Source of the DNA: Chlorobiota bacterium | Lineage (GTDB): Bacteria; Bacteroidota; Ignavibacteria; OLB7 | Direction of reading: 5' to 3' | DNA length: 64,000 nucleotides | Assembly (NCBI GenBank): GCA_016788565.1 | Contig: JAEUSP010000018.1 | Location: forward strand, 1-64,000 | In this document: one piece after another, positions 7,245-32,506 of the stretch | Position numbering within the stretch: the stretch's first letter is position 1 | Layout of the letters: each line of letters starts with the position of its first letter | Made by a program: the position numbers and the translations under genes | The notes under the pieces: model-generated | Seen by the model: only the letters and a program-made list of their open reading frames with translations | The model's database searches: none | Told to the model about the DNA's origin: nothing

Positions 7245-7428
7245 GTTGAAGACTGGTTATCGGTTTTGGTTATCGGGTTTCAGAAATCGGGAAACGGTTG
7301 ATGGGAAATCACTGGTAATTGGTAATTGGTAATTGGTAATTGGTGATTGGTGATTCAGTGATAGCAATTGGCAGAGCGAACAACACCAAACCACTAATGA
7401 CTAATGACCAAGGACCAATGACTAACGC
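7245..7428 (-). repeat. Three blocks of 7-bp repeats in the DUF3467 leader
   Basis: Read on the minus strand from the end of the TPR gene, the 184-bp spacer holds four GTCATTA/GTCATTG-type heptamers (about 7387-7418), about 35 bp of ordinary sequence, then six AATTACC/AATCACC heptamers (about 7310-7352), then CCGATAA/CCGATTT-type heptamers (about 7254-7295) ending a few bases before the DUF3467 ATG. All three blocks share the 7-bp period while their consensus differs. Confidence 0.85.
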
Positions 7429-8949
7429 CTATCCCCCTAGTTCCGTTGCTTTTTTGTCGGCGGCTTCGGCTTTTTTGCCGTCGCCGATGATGGCGTACAG
7501 GCGGCTTAGCCGGCGCCAGTAATCGGCGGTGCGGGCGTTGTTGCCAACGTTCTCCACCGCTTCCATTTCGCGGACTGCGCTTTTCAGATTGTCGGTCTCG
7601 GCAAGCACGTCGTACAGGTTGGCAAGCTCGCCCAGCAGTTGGTAATCGCCACGGCGTGCGGGGATTGCCTTCAGTTGCTCAAAGTATTTTTTGGATTCGC
7701 GAAGCGGCTTGCGGTACTGCTCAATTTGGTCGTTGGTTGGCTTCCCCTTGGATGCTTCGCGGATTTCGTCCTGCTTCCGCGCACCCAAATTTTTGTACAC
7801 CGCGCCCAAGTTGAACAGCGCGGTTTGCAGTGCCTTGTCGTCGCTTGGCAGGTCAATCGCCAACACCTTGCTGAACTGCTCAATCGCCTTGTCGAACTGC
7901 TTCTGCTCGTTGTACAAGTTGCCGTAGTTGATGTAGGGGCGCGGGTTTTTGGGGTCGCGGCGGATCTGCTCATCCAATGCCCGCATCGCTTCATCGGTGC
8001 GTTTGGTGACGACGTAGATTTCGGCGATGATCTCGCCGATGTCATCACGGGTAGCGTCAAGCTGCTCCACGGTACGCAGATATTTCAGCGCGTCGTCGAA
8101 TTTTCTGGGGTCGCTTTCGGCAGCGTTGTAGGCTTGCACACCAAGCGAGTACCAGGGTGAGGAGCGGATGGTGTTGCCAAGCTGCTGGCGGATGATCTCG
8201 GGCGTTTTATCGTCGCTGCCGTAGAACTTCCATCCTTCCACTATTGAGGCTTCGCCCGGTTTTGCTGAGGGCGCAAAATAGACGTAGAGGTTTTTGGCTT
8301 TGTAGAACGCGAACCCGCCAACGGAATCCGCCACGTTGATGACATCCGGCTTGCCAGCACGGGTTTCAAGTTGGCGGCGGTCAAGGCCCAAGGCCAAGCC
8401 CATTGCCAAGCCTGGGTCCACATCACGGCCAGCAACTTGCGCATAGTGCTGGTAGGTTTTTGTGACCATCGCATCATCCTTCAAACCAAGATAGACCTGG
8501 GCGCGGAGGAAGATATTTTCGGGATAATCTTTCCGAAGCATCTCCGCCGAATCCAACTCCTTCAGCGCTTGGGAGTAACTTTCGCTGTTGTAGTCCTTCA
8601 GCCCCGCATTGAACTTATTCAACCACCCGTTAAAGCGGCGGGCGGCAATGTCCTGGCGTTGGGAATTGCTGATGCTGGCGTTGGGGGCGGCCTCGGCTTT
8701 TGCGTAGGCTTCATCCATCTCCACCCAACGGCTTTGGTCGTTGTAGATGTCGCCCAGCAGCAGCCAGGCTTCAACGTTTCCTGGGCGGGCGGCCACCTCC
8801 TTCTTCAAGGCTTCTTCCGCCTTCTTGTAGTCTTTGGATTTCAGTGCCACCCGCGCAGTGGTAACTTCACTGGAGGCACATTCAAAGCCGCTTAACGCCA
8901 GATAGAGCGTTGCGGCACACAACAGCAGCAGGGAGCGGGAAAGATTCAT
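7429..8949 (-). CDS. Secreted tetratricopeptide-repeat protein
   Basis: A 506-residue protein made largely of TPR helices (for example VEAWLLLGDIYNDQSRWVEM and PRPYINYGNLYNEQKQFDKAIEQFSKVLA). The N-terminus MNLSRSLLLLCAATLYLALS is a signal peptide. Cys24 follows it but has Glu at -1, so it is not a standard lipobox. The start was placed at 8949 although the frame is open to 9138, because the extra 63 codons are translated repeat DNA and the signal peptide begins at 8949. A role as a periplasmic scaffold is inferred. The leader is an array of CCGATTC/CCGACAA heptamers. Confidence 0.87.
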   Translation of the reverse strand: MNLSRSLLLLCAATLYLALSGFECASSEVTTARVALKSKDYKKAEEALKKEVAARPGNVEAWLLLGDIYNDQSRWVEMDEAYAKAEAAPNASISNSQRQDIAARRFNGWLNKFNAGLKDYNSESYSQALKELDSAEMLRKDYPENIFLRAQVYLGLKDDAMVTKTYQHYAQVAGRDVDPGLAMGLALGLDRRQLETRAGKPDVINVADSVGGFAFYKAKNLYVYFAPSAKPGEASIVEGWKFYGSDDKTPEIIRQQLGNTIRSSPWYSLGVQAYNAAESDPRKFDDALKYLRTVEQLDATRDDIGEIIAEIYVVTKRTDEAMRALDEQIRRDPKNPRPYINYGNLYNEQKQFDKAIEQFSKVLAIDLPSDDKALQTALFNLGAVYKNLGARKQDEIREASKGKPTNDQIEQYRKPLRESKKYFEQLKAIPARRGDYQLLGELANLYDVLAETDNLKSAVREMEAVENVGNNARTADYWRRLSRLYAIIGDGKKAEAADKKATELGG

Positions 8950-9238
8950 GTTGGAAATCGGGAATCGGTTGTCGGGAGTCGGTTGTCGGGAATCGGTTGT
9001 CGGGAATCGGTTGTCGGGAATCGGTTGTCGGGAATCGGGAATCGGTTCATTGAGAGCGATTAGCACTGTCGAGTAAAAGAACAGTTTTCGCTCACTTCTT
9101 CGCTCAGAATTTCTTCTTTGCAACTGACCACTGACCATTGACCACTGACTTCCATCGGTTATCGGGAGTCGGAAGTCGGTAATCAGGCTTCTGGCTAACG
9201 ACTAATGACTTTTGTCGGAAATCGGATATACTCGGCGC
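8950..9238 (-). repeat. Composite heptamer element upstream of the TPR gene
   Basis: Read on the minus strand: CCGATTT-, GTCATTA- and CCGACTC-class heptamers (9238-9155), four GTCAGTG-class heptamers ending GTTGCA (about 9150-9121), a unique core of about 75 bp (about 9120-9047), then about 13 heptamers alternating CCGATTC and CCGACAA up to the ATG at 8949. The part from about 9165 to 8950 aligns with 26308-26513 in the same order, including the core, so it is one mobile or duplicated element. Confidence 0.9.
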
Positions 9239-9242
9239 AAAT

Positions 9243-9326
9243 TGGTTTGCGAAATTCTACTCAGCCAGGTGCGCTATGGATTCCCGCTTTCGCGGGAATG
9301 ACAGTGATTGAGTTTTTCGCAAACCA
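9243..9326. mobile_element. 84-bp MITE-like palindromic element
   Basis: A perfect 12-bp terminal inverted repeat (TGGTTTGCGAAA at 9243-9254, TTTCGCAAACCA at 9315-9326) encloses a second perfect hairpin, ATTCCCGC-TTTC-GCGGGAAT at 9280-9299. It has no coding capacity. The inner hairpin resembles the GGATTCCCGC...GCGGGAATGAC palindrome I know from intergenic DNA of other bacteria. The remaining 300 bp up to the transketolase start (9642) shows no gene. Confidence 0.7.
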
Positions 9327-9641
9327 CTCTGTTTGGAGTATAAAGTGTCTGTATTGTTTCTGATCCGGGTGCGTTCGTTGGCCGGAAATTTGTTGGCAAC
9401 TGAGCGTTCCTAATTTTTTTGGCCGCCAAACCTAACCATTTGCCCGCGCCGGAGCAAGGTTCTTCTATATTACAGTATCTCAAAGTGTAGGTAGTTGGCA
9501 GCAATGGCTGGCAAGGGGGGGAAGTTTGTTTAGCTTTGCGGTGCATTCAGTTGGAAGCCGCCAACGGCGGAAAATGTGGCAACTGAATCGCAGCCGCTAT
9601 CCTGAAAATTTCACACGACCGTTTCCCATACCGCTGTTCCC

Positions 9642-10481
9642 ATGCCATTTACGAACGAACGTCACTCGCCCGAAAAATTAGACGAGATAGCCCGCGAAAT
9701 CCGCCGCGACATTATCCGGTCGCTGGTGGTGGCAAAGTCGGGCCACTCCGGCGGGCCGCTTGGCTCGGCTGACATCTTTGCCGTCCTCTACATGGGGGGG
9801 GTGATGAACTACGATCCGCACGATCCCGCAAAACCGGGTCGCGACCGATTTATTCTTTCTGCTGGCCACATGTGCCCGGTGCTGTACGCAACGCTTGCCA
9901 ACGCGGGGTTCTTCCCCAAAAGTGAGTTGCTGACGCTTCGCAAATTCGGCAGCCGGTTGCAAGGGCACCCGGGGCGCGATATGCACCTTCCCGGAATTGA
10001 AAGCAGCACGGGATCGCTGGGCCAGGGGTTATCCATTGCGGTTGGAATGGCACTGAGCGACAAACTGGTAGATCGCAACGATGCTCGCGTGTATGCCCTT
10101 ACCGGCGATGGCGAGCTGCAAGAAGGCTCCATTTGGGAAGCAGTGATGTCGGCAGCGCACTACGGGCTGGATAATTTCTGCATGATCGTAGATAACAACG
10201 ACTGCCAGATTGATGGCCGCGTCCCCGACGTGATGAACATCTATCCGCTCCAGAAAAAATTTGAATCGTTCAATTTCCACGTGATTGAGTGCGACGGCAA
10301 CAACACCGCCGAACTTCTTGCCGCCTTCGATGAAGCCAAAGCCACCAAAGGGAAGCCAAGCTGCATCATTGCCCGCACCTACATGGGGAACGGCGTTAGC
10401 TTCATGCAGGACAAATACGAATGGCACGGCAAACCACCAAGCGAAGATCAAGCAAAGGTGGCGTTGGAGGAGTTGGGGTGA
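9642..10481 (+). CDS. tktA: Transketolase, N-terminal (TPP-binding) subunit
   Basis: A 279-residue protein equal to the first domain of transketolase, which transfers two-carbon ketol units in the pentose phosphate pathway. It has the substrate/TPP histidines in KSGHSGGPLGSAD and QGHPGRD, SSTGSLGQGLS, and the TPP/metal motif GDGELQEGS...DNNDCQ. The C-terminal half is a separate protein, encoded at 10972. Split transketolases occur in many bacteria and archaea, with the halves normally adjacent. Here an S23-type gene and heptamer repeats lie between them. The upstream 9327-9641 region shows no clear gene. Confidence 0.95.
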   Translation: MPFTNERHSPEKLDEIAREIRRDIIRSLVVAKSGHSGGPLGSADIFAVLYMGGVMNYDPHDPAKPGRDRFILSAGHMCPVLYATLANAGFFPKSELLTLRKFGSRLQGHPGRDMHLPGIESSTGSLGQGLSIAVGMALSDKLVDRNDARVYALTGDGELQEGSIWEAVMSAAHYGLDNFCMIVDNNDCQIDGRVPDVMNIYPLQKKFESFNFHVIECDGNNTAELLAAFDEAKATKGKPSCIIARTYMGNGVSFMQDKYEWHGKPPSEDQAKVALEELG

Positions 10482-10492
10482 GTTCGTTGCTT

Positions 10493-10517
10493 GTGGTCAG
10501 TTGTCAGTGGTCAGTTG
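10493..10517 (+). repeat. Left heptamer end of the S23 cassette
   Basis: The units GTGGTCA, GTTGTCA, GTGGTCA and GTTGCAT lie 12 bp after the stop of the transketolase N-half. The terminal GTGGTCAGTTGCA is the same as at 9121-9135 (minus) and 26335-26349, and it is inverted relative to the array at 10938-10970. Confidence 0.9.
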
Positions 10518-10545
10518 CATTGTCGAGTCATGGCCAGATTATACT
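10515..10545 (+). promoter_or_regulatory. Possible promoter of the S23 gene
   Basis: TATACT at 10540-10545 is a good -10 hexamer, and TTGCAT at 10515-10520, formed by the last heptamer, could be a -35 with a 19-bp spacer. Transcription would then begin close to the ATG at 10552, giving an almost leaderless message. This is a motif match only. Confidence 0.3.
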
Positions 10546-10551
10546 CTCATT

Positions 10552-10932
10552 ATGGCGCGATCCCAGTTTGAAAACCTTCAGGTTTATCGTCTGGCAGAAC
10601 AGCTTGCTGATGCAGTATGGAAAGTTGTGAAATCATGGCTAGCGTTTGAACAACGAACAATTGGCTTACAACTGATACGATCAAGTGATTCAATTGGCGC
10701 GAACATCGCCGAAGGAACGGGGCGGGGTACATTTCAAGATAACAGGAGATTTGTCCGAATAGCACGCGGCTCGCTGTATGAAACGAAGCATTGGCTACGT
10801 CGCGCTTTTGCCCGCCAGCTTCTTACATCAGAAGAAATCAATGTATTGAAAGCAATCGTTGACGAACTTTCTCCAAAACTGAACAGCTACCTACAATCAA
10901 TCGGCCCTAAAGAGGGCGAAATAGATACATGA
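10552..10932 (+). CDS. Four-helix bundle protein (S23 / 23S rRNA intervening-sequence family)
   Basis: A 126-residue all-helical protein with the family marks FENLQVYRLAEQLADAVW, SIGANIAEGTGR and ARGSLYETKHWLRR. The family (PF05635, TIGR02436) was named from ORFs in intervening sequences of 23S rRNA genes, but most members are free-standing and their function is unknown. It shares its fold with the Avd accessory proteins of diversity-generating retroelements, but no reverse transcriptase is present in this window. The ATG at 10552 was chosen because the open frame further upstream only shadows the transketolase gene. The gene sits between inverted 7-bp repeats and splits an otherwise contiguous operon, so it was probably inserted. 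Confidence 0.92.
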   Translation: MARSQFENLQVYRLAEQLADAVWKVVKSWLAFEQRTIGLQLIRSSDSIGANIAEGTGRGTFQDNRRFVRIARGSLYETKHWLRRAFARQLLTSEEINVLKAIVDELSPKLNSYLQSIGPKEGEIDT

Positions 10933-10937
10933 TCTTT

Positions 10938-10970
10938 TGCCACTGGCAACTGACAACTGACAACTGACAA
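10938..10970 (-). repeat. Right heptamer end of the S23 cassette
   Basis: The units CACTGGC, AACTGAC, AACTGAC, AACTGAC and AA end directly at the ATG of the transketolase C-half. Their reverse complement (GTCAGTT)nGCCAGTGGC mirrors the left array, so the S23 gene has heptameric terminal inverted repeats. I could not find a clear target-site duplication. Confidence 0.88.
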
Positions 10971-10971
10971 T

Positions 10972-12060
10972 ATGACCACTTACGGCTCGAAAGCAACACG
11001 ATTTGGATTTGGGGAAGGCCTTGCGGAATTGGGCGCACAAGACGAACGGATCGTCGTTCTTGGCGGCGACATCACCGGCTCGGTTCTTACCAGCCTCTTC
11101 AAAGAAAAATTCCCCGACCGATTCTTCTCGATGGGAATTGCCGAACAGAACGCCACCACCGTGGCGGCTGGGCTGGCACTTAGTGGCAAGGTTCCGTTCT
11201 TTGCCAGCTACGGCGCGTTCTGCGCGCTTCGCAATGCCGACCAGCTCCGAATCTCGGTGTGCTACAACGAAGCCAACGTAAAAATTGGCGGCGGTCATAG
11301 CGGCATCTCCGTCGGTCCCGACGGCGCAACTCACCAGATTTTGGAAGACATCGCACTGCTGCACGCGCTACCCCACATGACACTGGTGGTCCCGTGCGAC
11401 TACTTGGAAGCAAAGAAGGCAACGATTGCAATCGGCCAGATGATTGGCCCGGCCTACATCCGTTTTGGCCGCGAATCCACACCGATGTTCACCACCGAGG
11501 AAACCCCCTTCCGGCTTGGGAAAGGTGAGGTGTTCCGCCAGGGGAACGATCTTGCCATTATCGCTTGCGGGCCAATGGTCTGGGAAGCACTGGTTGCTGC
11601 CGACGAGCTAGCAAAAGAAGGGATTCAAGCACGGGTAATCAACATCCACACTATCAAGCCGTTGGATGAAGAAATCATTGCCGAAGCCGCGCGCGAATGC
11701 GGAGCAATCGTCACGGCCGAGGAAGCCCAGATTATCGGCGGGTTCGGTTCGGCAGTGGCTCAGGCGGTGGTGAAAAATCACCCGGTGCCGATGGAGTTCG
11801 TGGGCGTTACCGACACGTTCGGCGGGTCCGGCACACCAACCGAATTGATGAAAGCCTTTGGCCTTACCAGCGGCGACATCTACAACTCCGCCAAAAAAGT
11901 GCTGATGCGCCGCAGCGGACAGTGGAACGGTTTCCAACGGATGACCGAAGTTGGCATGGAAGGCCAACACCCACAGAACTACCCAAAACCTGGCGTCGTC
12001 TTCCCGATTGAGGAATTGATTGAGGCCGACCGCCAAGCCGCCGCCGAGCAAACCGCGTAG
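10972..12060 (+). CDS. tktB: Transketolase, C-terminal (Pyr plus C-domain) subunit
   Basis: A 362-residue partner of the subunit at 9642. The conserved catalytic glutamate is in GIAEQNATTVAAGLA, followed by FASYGAFCALRNADQLR and HSGISVGPDGATHQ. The C-domain includes VINIHTIKPLD. Together the halves should form an alpha2beta2 transketolase. The ATG follows the last repeat unit by one base and no Shine-Dalgarno is visible, so insertion of the repeats has replaced the original spacer. It is about 45 residues longer than many TktB halves, owing to a C-terminal extension after about residue 315. Confidence 0.95.
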   Translation: MTTYGSKATRFGFGEGLAELGAQDERIVVLGGDITGSVLTSLFKEKFPDRFFSMGIAEQNATTVAAGLALSGKVPFFASYGAFCALRNADQLRISVCYNEANVKIGGGHSGISVGPDGATHQILEDIALLHALPHMTLVVPCDYLEAKKATIAIGQMIGPAYIRFGRESTPMFTTEETPFRLGKGEVFRQGNDLAIIACGPMVWEALVAADELAKEGIQARVINIHTIKPLDEEIIAEAARECGAIVTAEEAQIIGGFGSAVAQAVVKNHPVPMEFVGVTDTFGGSGTPTELMKAFGLTSGDIYNSAKKVLMRRSGQWNGFQRMTEVGMEGQHPQNYPKPGVVFPIEELIEADRQAAAEQTA

Positions 12061-26297: not shown

Positions 26298-26513
26298 CCG
26301 ATCCCAGAAACCCGATGTAAGTCAGTGGTCAGTAGTCAGTGGTCAGTTGCAAAGAAGAAATTCTGAGCGAAGAAGAGAGCGAAAACCGTTCTTTTACTCG
26401 ACAGTACCAATCGCCATCAATTAACCGAAACCCGACAACCGATTCCCGAAACCCGATTCCCGACAACCGATTCCCGAAACCCGATTCCCGACAACCGAAA
26501 CCCGATTCCCGAT
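26298..26513 (+). repeat. Composite heptamer element, second copy
   Basis: Four GTCAGTG-class heptamers (26321-26348) end in GTTGCA. They are followed by a core of about 75 bp, then thirteen CCGAAAC/CCGATTC/CCGACAA heptamers (26425-26513) that stop immediately before the ATG at 26514. Core and order match 8950-9165 on the opposite strand with a dozen or so differences in about 115 aligned bases before the second array. Both copies end against a start codon. Confidence 0.92.
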
Positions 26514-32120: not shown

Positions 32121-32506
32121 GCCAGCCTGGAATGTTGGAATGCCGAATGCTGAATGTCGAATAGAAGAGTGCAGAATGGGAAGTTGGGAATGCTGGAACC
32201 GGCCACCAAACCCCGCCCTCCGCTCATGCTGAGCCTGTCGAAGTATGAGTGGAGCCACCGAACCCAATCGCCTTCGCGCCTTCCCTCACCCCCCCCAAAA
32301 AAGAGTGAAGAGTGAAATGGGAAGAGTGAGATGGAACCAAAGCAGGGAACTCACTAATGACCAATGACTAATCACCACTCCACTCCACACCCCCCGCCCT
32401 CCGCTCATGCTGCCTCCCCATCCCAAATATATCCACCGCTTCCCGTAACACGTTGTCAGTTCTGATTGCTTACATTGGGGCGCAAGTGTAGGTTTGCCCT
32501 CCTTCA
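32121..32506. repeat. Repeat-filled spacer before plsX
   Basis: In order: heptamer-like units around GGAATGC/CGAATGC/TGAATGT/CGAATAG (32130-32166), an inverted copy of dispersed repeat A (32213-32265), AAGAGTG heptamers (about 32303-32330), CACTAAT/GACCAAT/GACTAAT heptamers (about 32350-32375) and a truncated repeat A (32391-32412). No gene. The plsX promoter probably lies in the last 80 bp. Confidence 0.8.

Follow-up and report, generated by a model that had tools for sequence, protein, structure and literature searches.

Why does a gene of the S23 family lie between the two halves of transketolase in a Chlorobiota bacterium, with inverted 7-bp repeats on either side of it? S23 genes are common and unexplained: their product was wrongly named a ribosomal protein, and their function is unknown. 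Dispersed heptamers are a similar puzzle: reports from Xanthomonas, cyanobacteria and Beggiatoaceae go back years and give no cause. Both occur together in a 64,000-nucleotide stretch of DNA, here called the window (Table 1). The genome that holds it is G000 below; G001 belongs to the same genus, G002 to another genus of the family, and G004 to the genus of G002; G003 is a further family member.

The tkt insert has a GC content of 0.46, against 0.56 for the window, and S23 is its sole gene. The protein matches PF05635 over positions 1-106 of 106 (101.9 bits against a curated cutoff of 33.8) and TIGR02436 at 93.5 against a cutoff of 24; no other Pfam family matched it. Its AF2 model (pLDDT 95) is a four-helix bundle like XCC0516, the best match in the PDB (2gsc, TM 0.89). 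Next come 2rld and then Avd (4dwl, TM 0.71), and the TM range against the Avd structures 4dwl and 8ub7 is 0.67-0.74. A solved S23 relative is a homopentamer. In the minimum-free-energy (MFE) structure of the RNA, the left and right arrays pair, at about -40 kcal/mol for the duplex, so that the terminal inverted repeats form a predicted stem around the S23 ORF, the outer part of which takes in the tktB start codon. The MFE z-score of the cassette RNA is only -1.6. Terminal inverted repeats and empty sites are features that the cassette shares with DNA transposons and MITEs; the recombinase or transposase gene of an autonomous copy is absent from it.

Table 1. Features of the tkt cassette and of related arrays in the window
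Feature	Position	Strand	Evidence or remark
tktA, transketolase N-terminal half, host gene upstream of cassette	9642..10481	+	Pfam PF00456, E=1e-54
Inserted cassette, whole, 490 bp from tktA stop to tktB start	10482..10971	+	Absent from G003, G004 and outgroups; present in G001 and G002
Left heptamer array (GTGGTCA GTTGTCA GTGGTCA GTTGCA), sense orientation	10493..10519	+	GTGGTCAGTTGTCAGTGGTCAGTTGCA
S23 / 23S_rRNA_IVP / four-helix-bundle gene, 126 aa, intact	10552..10932	+	PF05635, E=3e-29; TIGR02436
Right heptamer array (AACTGAC)n, inverted copy of left array	10939..10970	-	GGCAACTGACAACTGACAACTGACA (about 10942-10970); ends at tktB ATG
tktB, transketolase C-terminal half, host gene downstream	10972..12060	+	PF02779/PF02780
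Dispersed gene-less GTCAGTK array adjoining TCGGGAA array	9119..9149	-	Array absent at orthologous G001 site
Composite gene-less element: GTCAGTG array, ~75-bp core, CCGATTC array	26321..26513	+	Absent at orthologous G001 site
TGGTRAT array, heptamer family of the second S23 cassette (murB, S23, ftsQ; locus L001)	7313..7355	+	

Was the cassette inserted? The original prediction held that it was, and the relatives bear this out: G003, G004 and outgroups have an empty junction between tktA and tktB, while G001 and G002 carry an orthologous cassette there. Because G002 belongs to another genus, the cassette is no recent arrival in this species. The S23 gene has been under purifying selection since G000 and G001 parted (dN/dS 0.42). 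Its silent divergence from the G001 copy (contig C51) is 0.12, the lowest of 34 genes compared in the window, the other 33 ranging from 0.22 to 0.52. Such a low value suggests that the cassette was exchanged later or is under extra constraint. The amino-acid divergence of the same pair (10552-10932 vs G001:C51) is not low, despite the lowest silent divergence.

Is this layout peculiar to the tkt junction? There are two S23 genes in G000, the second between murB and an ftsQ-like gene, and it too is framed by inverted 7-bp arrays, TGATTGG on the left and CCAATCA on the right. In spirit, the second S23 gene thus does not contradict the original prediction, which S23 genes of this genome without such flanks would have refuted. 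Since the heptamers differ, what the two cassettes have in common is their architecture and not their repeat sequence.

The same architecture recurs widely. Strongly matching inverted flanks (left flank against inverted right flank at a score of at least 16) were found at about 55% of 145 S23 loci from many phyla; the other 45% or so, which lack them, count against the cassette reading. The shuffled, same-genome and other-gene controls gave 0-2%. For 71 loci of the same class the figures are 55% versus 0.5% in mismatched pairs, and for 74 loci from Proteobacteria, Clostridia, Planctomycetes, Acidobacteria, Cyanobacteria, Bacteroidetes and others they are 57% versus 1.8%. The score was reached by 0.2% of random positions and by 0.6-1.3% of other ORFs, the top-scoring of which included S23 genes themselves and one GxxExxY gene. 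Shuffles, same-genome mismatched pairs and other ORFs together rule out chance or generic intergenic repeats, and the claim that inverted GTCAGTK arrays frame the S23 gene inside tktA/tktB is upheld. When flanks of different S23 genes from one genome were paired, 0 of 112 pairs reached the score; hence, the heptamer belongs to the individual locus rather than to the genome. Of 163 arrays, 133 fit a period of 7 best; sometimes 8, 6 or 9 fits best. Among the 71 same-class loci, period-7 arrays occur in 33 left and 23 right flanks, and other periods, with the exception of 14, in 0-4. A degenerate cyclic motif, KSAGWNG (3.45 bits against 2.5-2.7 in shuffles), is common to the distinct heptamers, and heptamer similarity is weakly correlated with protein similarity (Mantel r -0.12, p 0.005, for pairs below 60% identity). 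No match to S23 was found in phages. Two loci, L063 (G001:C10) and L264, have an intact S23 gene and a degenerate or partial second copy with arrays between them, as in a nested or tandem insertion.

Where do the cassettes lie? The upstream neighbor is co-directional in 86 of 104 S23 loci, and both neighbors are in 71. Of 82 cassettes, 53 have a left arm that begins no more than 15 nt from the upstream stop codon, and the median arm-to-arm length is 486 bp. Named examples, with neighbor genes identified from the loci's own sequence, are nuoC and nuoD in two Bosea, argE/dapE and argH in Maribacter and Cytophaga, hisH and hisA in Wenyingzhuangia, and glutamine synthetase and an oxidoreductase gene in Brucella and Mesorhizobium. 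Survivor bias can account for part of this preference for operon junctions, because insertions that disrupt a coding sequence would disappear and a gene lacking a promoter would have to rely on the transcription of an operon. None of the short S23 loci examined contained a conserved 23S motif, and the tkt cassette lies between tktA and tktB rather than inside an rRNA gene.

Filled and empty versions of one site are found on plasmids. In Nostoc C052 and N. edaphicum, S23 separates a traM-like gene from the gene that follows it; Nostoc C057 has the C052 traM operon at 94.7% identity with neither insert nor arrays; and Nostoc ATCC 53789 has an inverted array pair, without S23, at the identical point. 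On a plasmid of Calothrix NIES-22, S23 lies between an integrase gene and its neighbor, a site at which Tolypothrix, Aulosira and N. carneum (90-91% identity) have a stop codon, 3 bp and ATG. G001 lacks S23 at its murB site, where murB ends in two heptamer-like copies, and at the site of the second S23 gene of G001, G000 instead holds a gene-less inverted GTCAGTK pair. No target-site duplication is evident at the Nostoc and Calothrix sites, and the compared sites do not define a precise end of the cassette, which counts against a cassette model. An all-against-all comparison found shared sites and no near-identical S23 cassettes at two unrelated sites in one genome; this outcome also counts against the model and led us to reject recent within-genome transposition. 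Cassettes are mostly inherited along with their site, as in Brucella, Bosea and at tkt.

Do gene-less arrays accompany the gene? The original prediction saw in the cassette an autonomous element and in two composite elements its gene-less derivatives. Filled, empty and gene-less states do exist at one site, the traM junction of Nostoc, and the heptamer end does recur at both composites: GTGGTCAGTTGCA has three exact copies in the window (10507 +, 9119 -, 26339 +) and, with 2 mismatches, 7 matches against 1.9 expected, a number reached by 0 of 100 shuffles. However, each composite has a GTCAGTK array at one end and a different heptamer, of the CCGATTC/TCGGGAA type, at the other. They are therefore not simple gene-less versions of the tkt cassette, and that part of the proposal does not stand. 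The gene-less window arrays are missing at the orthologous sites of the sister species G001, which supports the original prediction.

One heptamer's dispersed arrays track the S23 gene that bears that heptamer. GTCAGTK arrays occur throughout G000 (425 overlapping pattern matches), the majority of them, in sampled stretches, outside inverted pairs. (GTCAGTN)x3 has 282 matches in G000, 257 in G001 and 119 in G002, all with a GTCAGTN-framed S23 gene, and none in G003 or G004; in 56 other genomes the count is near zero: G022 and G034 have 1 match each, and G037, with an S23 gene of its own flanked by AGTAGTCAGTAG, has 9. Because G000, G001 and G002 are related, few independent events lie behind this tracking, and the informative contrast is that of G004 with its congener G002. 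AGTAACG has 48 matches in G049, which carries the matching S23 cassette, 6 and 5 in two congeners, and 0 in a third. GGCAGAR, the heptamer of the g6 cassettes, is hardly dispersed, and its long arrays are too few for judging tracking. In G000, ATCGGGA, GAATGYC and GAAGAGT are abundant although no S23 gene matches them; this and the scant dispersal of GGCAGAR count against a model that ties arrays to S23.

The window and its genome hold further repeats. The TCGGGAA, GAATGYC, GAAGAGT and CTAATGA families are plentiful in G000, which has no S23 gene to match them; sites of other heptamers are 7313-7355, 8953-9045, 26425-26513 and 32138-32404 in the window, and L145-L149. A different dispersed element, the palindrome ATTCCCGCGAAAGCGGGAAT with flanking TTTGCGAAA, is found at window positions 9235-9345 and at L001:1850-1960, that is, beside tktA and within the murB S23 cassette. 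An ORF listed at 7429-9138 (-) crosses heptamer arrays in its first ~60 codons, and its true start is probably near 8949.

What kind of unit is this? We read the S23 gene with its inverted arrays as a transferable, promoterless counterpart, in mRNA operons, of the 23S rRNA intervening sequence (IVS), with S23 recognizing its own heptamers, and put the probability of this reading at roughly 70%. It builds on what the comparisons established: a cassette at tkt, a general architecture with a locus-specific heptamer, empty sites, co-occurrence of arrays with S23, and a tie to the rRNA IVSs. The cassette would insert at stop-start junctions between co-directional genes. It has hardly any space for its own promoter and is probably transcribed along with the host genes. 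Within that RNA the two arrays could pair into a long stem; were RNase III to cut that stem, the tktA, S23 and tktB messages would separate and the host would be little harmed. S23, a basic four-helix-bundle protein, most likely recognizes the heptamers of its own cassette, and, on this reading, gene-less copies of the array have spread through genomes with a matching S23, as REPINs do in RAYT genomes. The cutting of the tkt transcript by RNase III, the binding by S23 and any role of S23 in movement are inferred. An excess of G-U wobbles, sought as a sign of RNA-level selection on the stem, was not found: G-U pairs did not exceed A-C pairs among arm mismatches (89 vs 99). The arms thus give no sign of such selection, and this and the modest MFE z-score count against the reading.

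The putative mobilizing or repeat-binding role that was originally suggested for S23 draws support only from the co-occurrence of gene and arrays, the weak correlation of protein with heptamer, and the Avd-like fold. Taken further, S23 might be the repeat-recognizing, mobilizing or copying factor of hitherto unrecognized, very widespread minimal mobile elements. Each would consist of one small gene without a known nuclease, recombinase or reverse transcriptase, diversifying inverted 7-bp arrays and gene-less dependents; rRNA IVSs would be a special case and GxxExxY genes a parallel class. This extension is tentative, and we would bet against it at about two to one.

Could the arrays have come first? 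Ordinary host repeats would then expand at stop-start junctions, and S23 genes would insert into them or be trapped by them. Arrays do far exceed S23 genes in number in G000 and G001, the murB gene of G001 ends in heptamer-like copies without S23, and a gene-less pair occupies the Nostoc traM site. Yet the closest empty sites (Nostoc C057, Tolypothrix and Aulosira) are wholly free of arrays, period-7 arrays number 0 in 220 kb of seven S23-less genomes and 0-5 per 100 kb in other S23-bearing genomes, and the two arrays of a cassette repeat one locus-specific heptamer in opposite orientations. We consider this origin unlikely. Slightly less likely still is that S23 is an old operon member whose arrays are stems for RNA processing or translation control, with nothing mobile about them. 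Clean empty sites at 90-95% identity speak against it, as do loss or absence in G004, from the genus of G002, a silent divergence lower than that of any other window gene compared, and a patchy spread over unrelated operons, even though the tkt site is common to two genera, congeners share sites, S23 is under purifying selection (dN/dS 0.42) and the tktB start codon lies within the folded stem.

Could an enzyme encoded elsewhere drive the movement? A Y1 transposase of the RAYT/IS200 type might move the repeats with S23 as a passenger, by analogy with REPINs (PMC3116915), and Y1 matches do occur, one in G000 and six in G002. They do not track the arrays, however: G001 has 257 array matches and no Y1 match, whereas G003 and G004 have 3-4 Y1 matches (three in G004) and no arrays. 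We rejected Y1 as the driver, and such passenger status is very improbable. Retro-mobility, in which S23 plays the part of Avd and a reverse transcriptase copies the transcript, would suit the likeness of its fold to the Avd of diversity-generating retroelements (DGRs; TM 0.67-0.74), the homology of PF05635 with Avd noted earlier (PMC10053308), and insertion into transcribed operons and rRNA. But G000, G001 and G002 have no RVT_1 match, which argues against a reverse transcriptase as the driver and makes this route equally hard to credit. On one contig of G003 (C114:1018 and 6294; L340, L065), a reverse transcriptase match lies ~5 kb from an S23 gene, possibly a DGR with an Avd-like S23.

The preferred reading, of a transferable operon counterpart of the rRNA IVS, places the cassette among several known systems. 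REPINs and RAYTs (PMC3116915) likewise combine short inverted repeats, dispersed between genes, with one gene flanked by the same repeat; unlike RAYTs, S23 has no Y1/HUH transposase motif, and here the repeats are 7-bp tandem arrays rather than palindromic REPs, with Y1 genes that do not track them. Avd of DGRs (4dwl, 8ub7) has the four-helix-bundle fold, but it is ~10% identical to S23, and the cassette-bearing relatives have no reverse transcriptase. GxxExxY genes (PDDEXK_3; TIGR04256, PF13366) likewise have inverted arrays of short units on both sides (52% of 52 genes; null 0%), though the units are irregular, about CACAGAG plus 1-3 bases, and the family is unrelated, with a nuclease fold. 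At the GxxExxY loci L194-L243 and L183:1898-2311 the units are of 8-10 bp and of the CACAGAG, CTTAGTG and CGCGGAT types; there are four such genes in G000.

The dispersed heptamers of Xanthomonas, Nostoc and Beggiatoaceae and the cyanobacterial STRRs share the 7-bp period and the position just after stop or before start codons. In Xanthomonas, GGGAATC arrays adjoin stop and start codons and form 70 convergent pairs (PMC4692102); GGGGATT is dispersed in Nostoc (PMC4692102) and TAACTGA in Beggiatoaceae (PMC4679880). Unlike the arrays here, these were reported with no link to S23 or to mobile elements (PMC4692102, PMC4679880), and none is stated for GGGAATC (PMC4692102). In the open literature, subscription journals and preprints lying outside the scope, no paper linked S23 to heptamer arrays in general.

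The closest likeness is to the 23S rRNA IVSs of Coxiella and Leptospira (PMC4990558), which share with the cassette an S23 ORF, terminal inverted repeats, heptamers beside the ORF, a length of ~430-490 bp, insertion into a transcribed unit and a patchy distribution. The Coxiella IVS has 2-3 tandem GACAGAT heptamers upstream of S23p and 28-bp terminal inverted repeats, and RNase III processes it in vitro at the start of the first repeat (PMC4990558). Old proposals that IVSs are remnants of transposition or mobile elements are recounted there (PMC4990558), and rRNA insertions of CPR bacteria also bear the S23 protein family (PMC11270868). The host unit here differs, in that it is a protein-coding operon junction, and locus-specific heptamers, gene-less copies and generality across phyla are described here and not, in the papers found, for IVSs. 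Because the layout of the Coxiella IVS matches that of the cassette, rRNA IVSs look like a special case of it, and S23 proteins, dispersed heptamers and rRNA IVSs are joined into one testable system.
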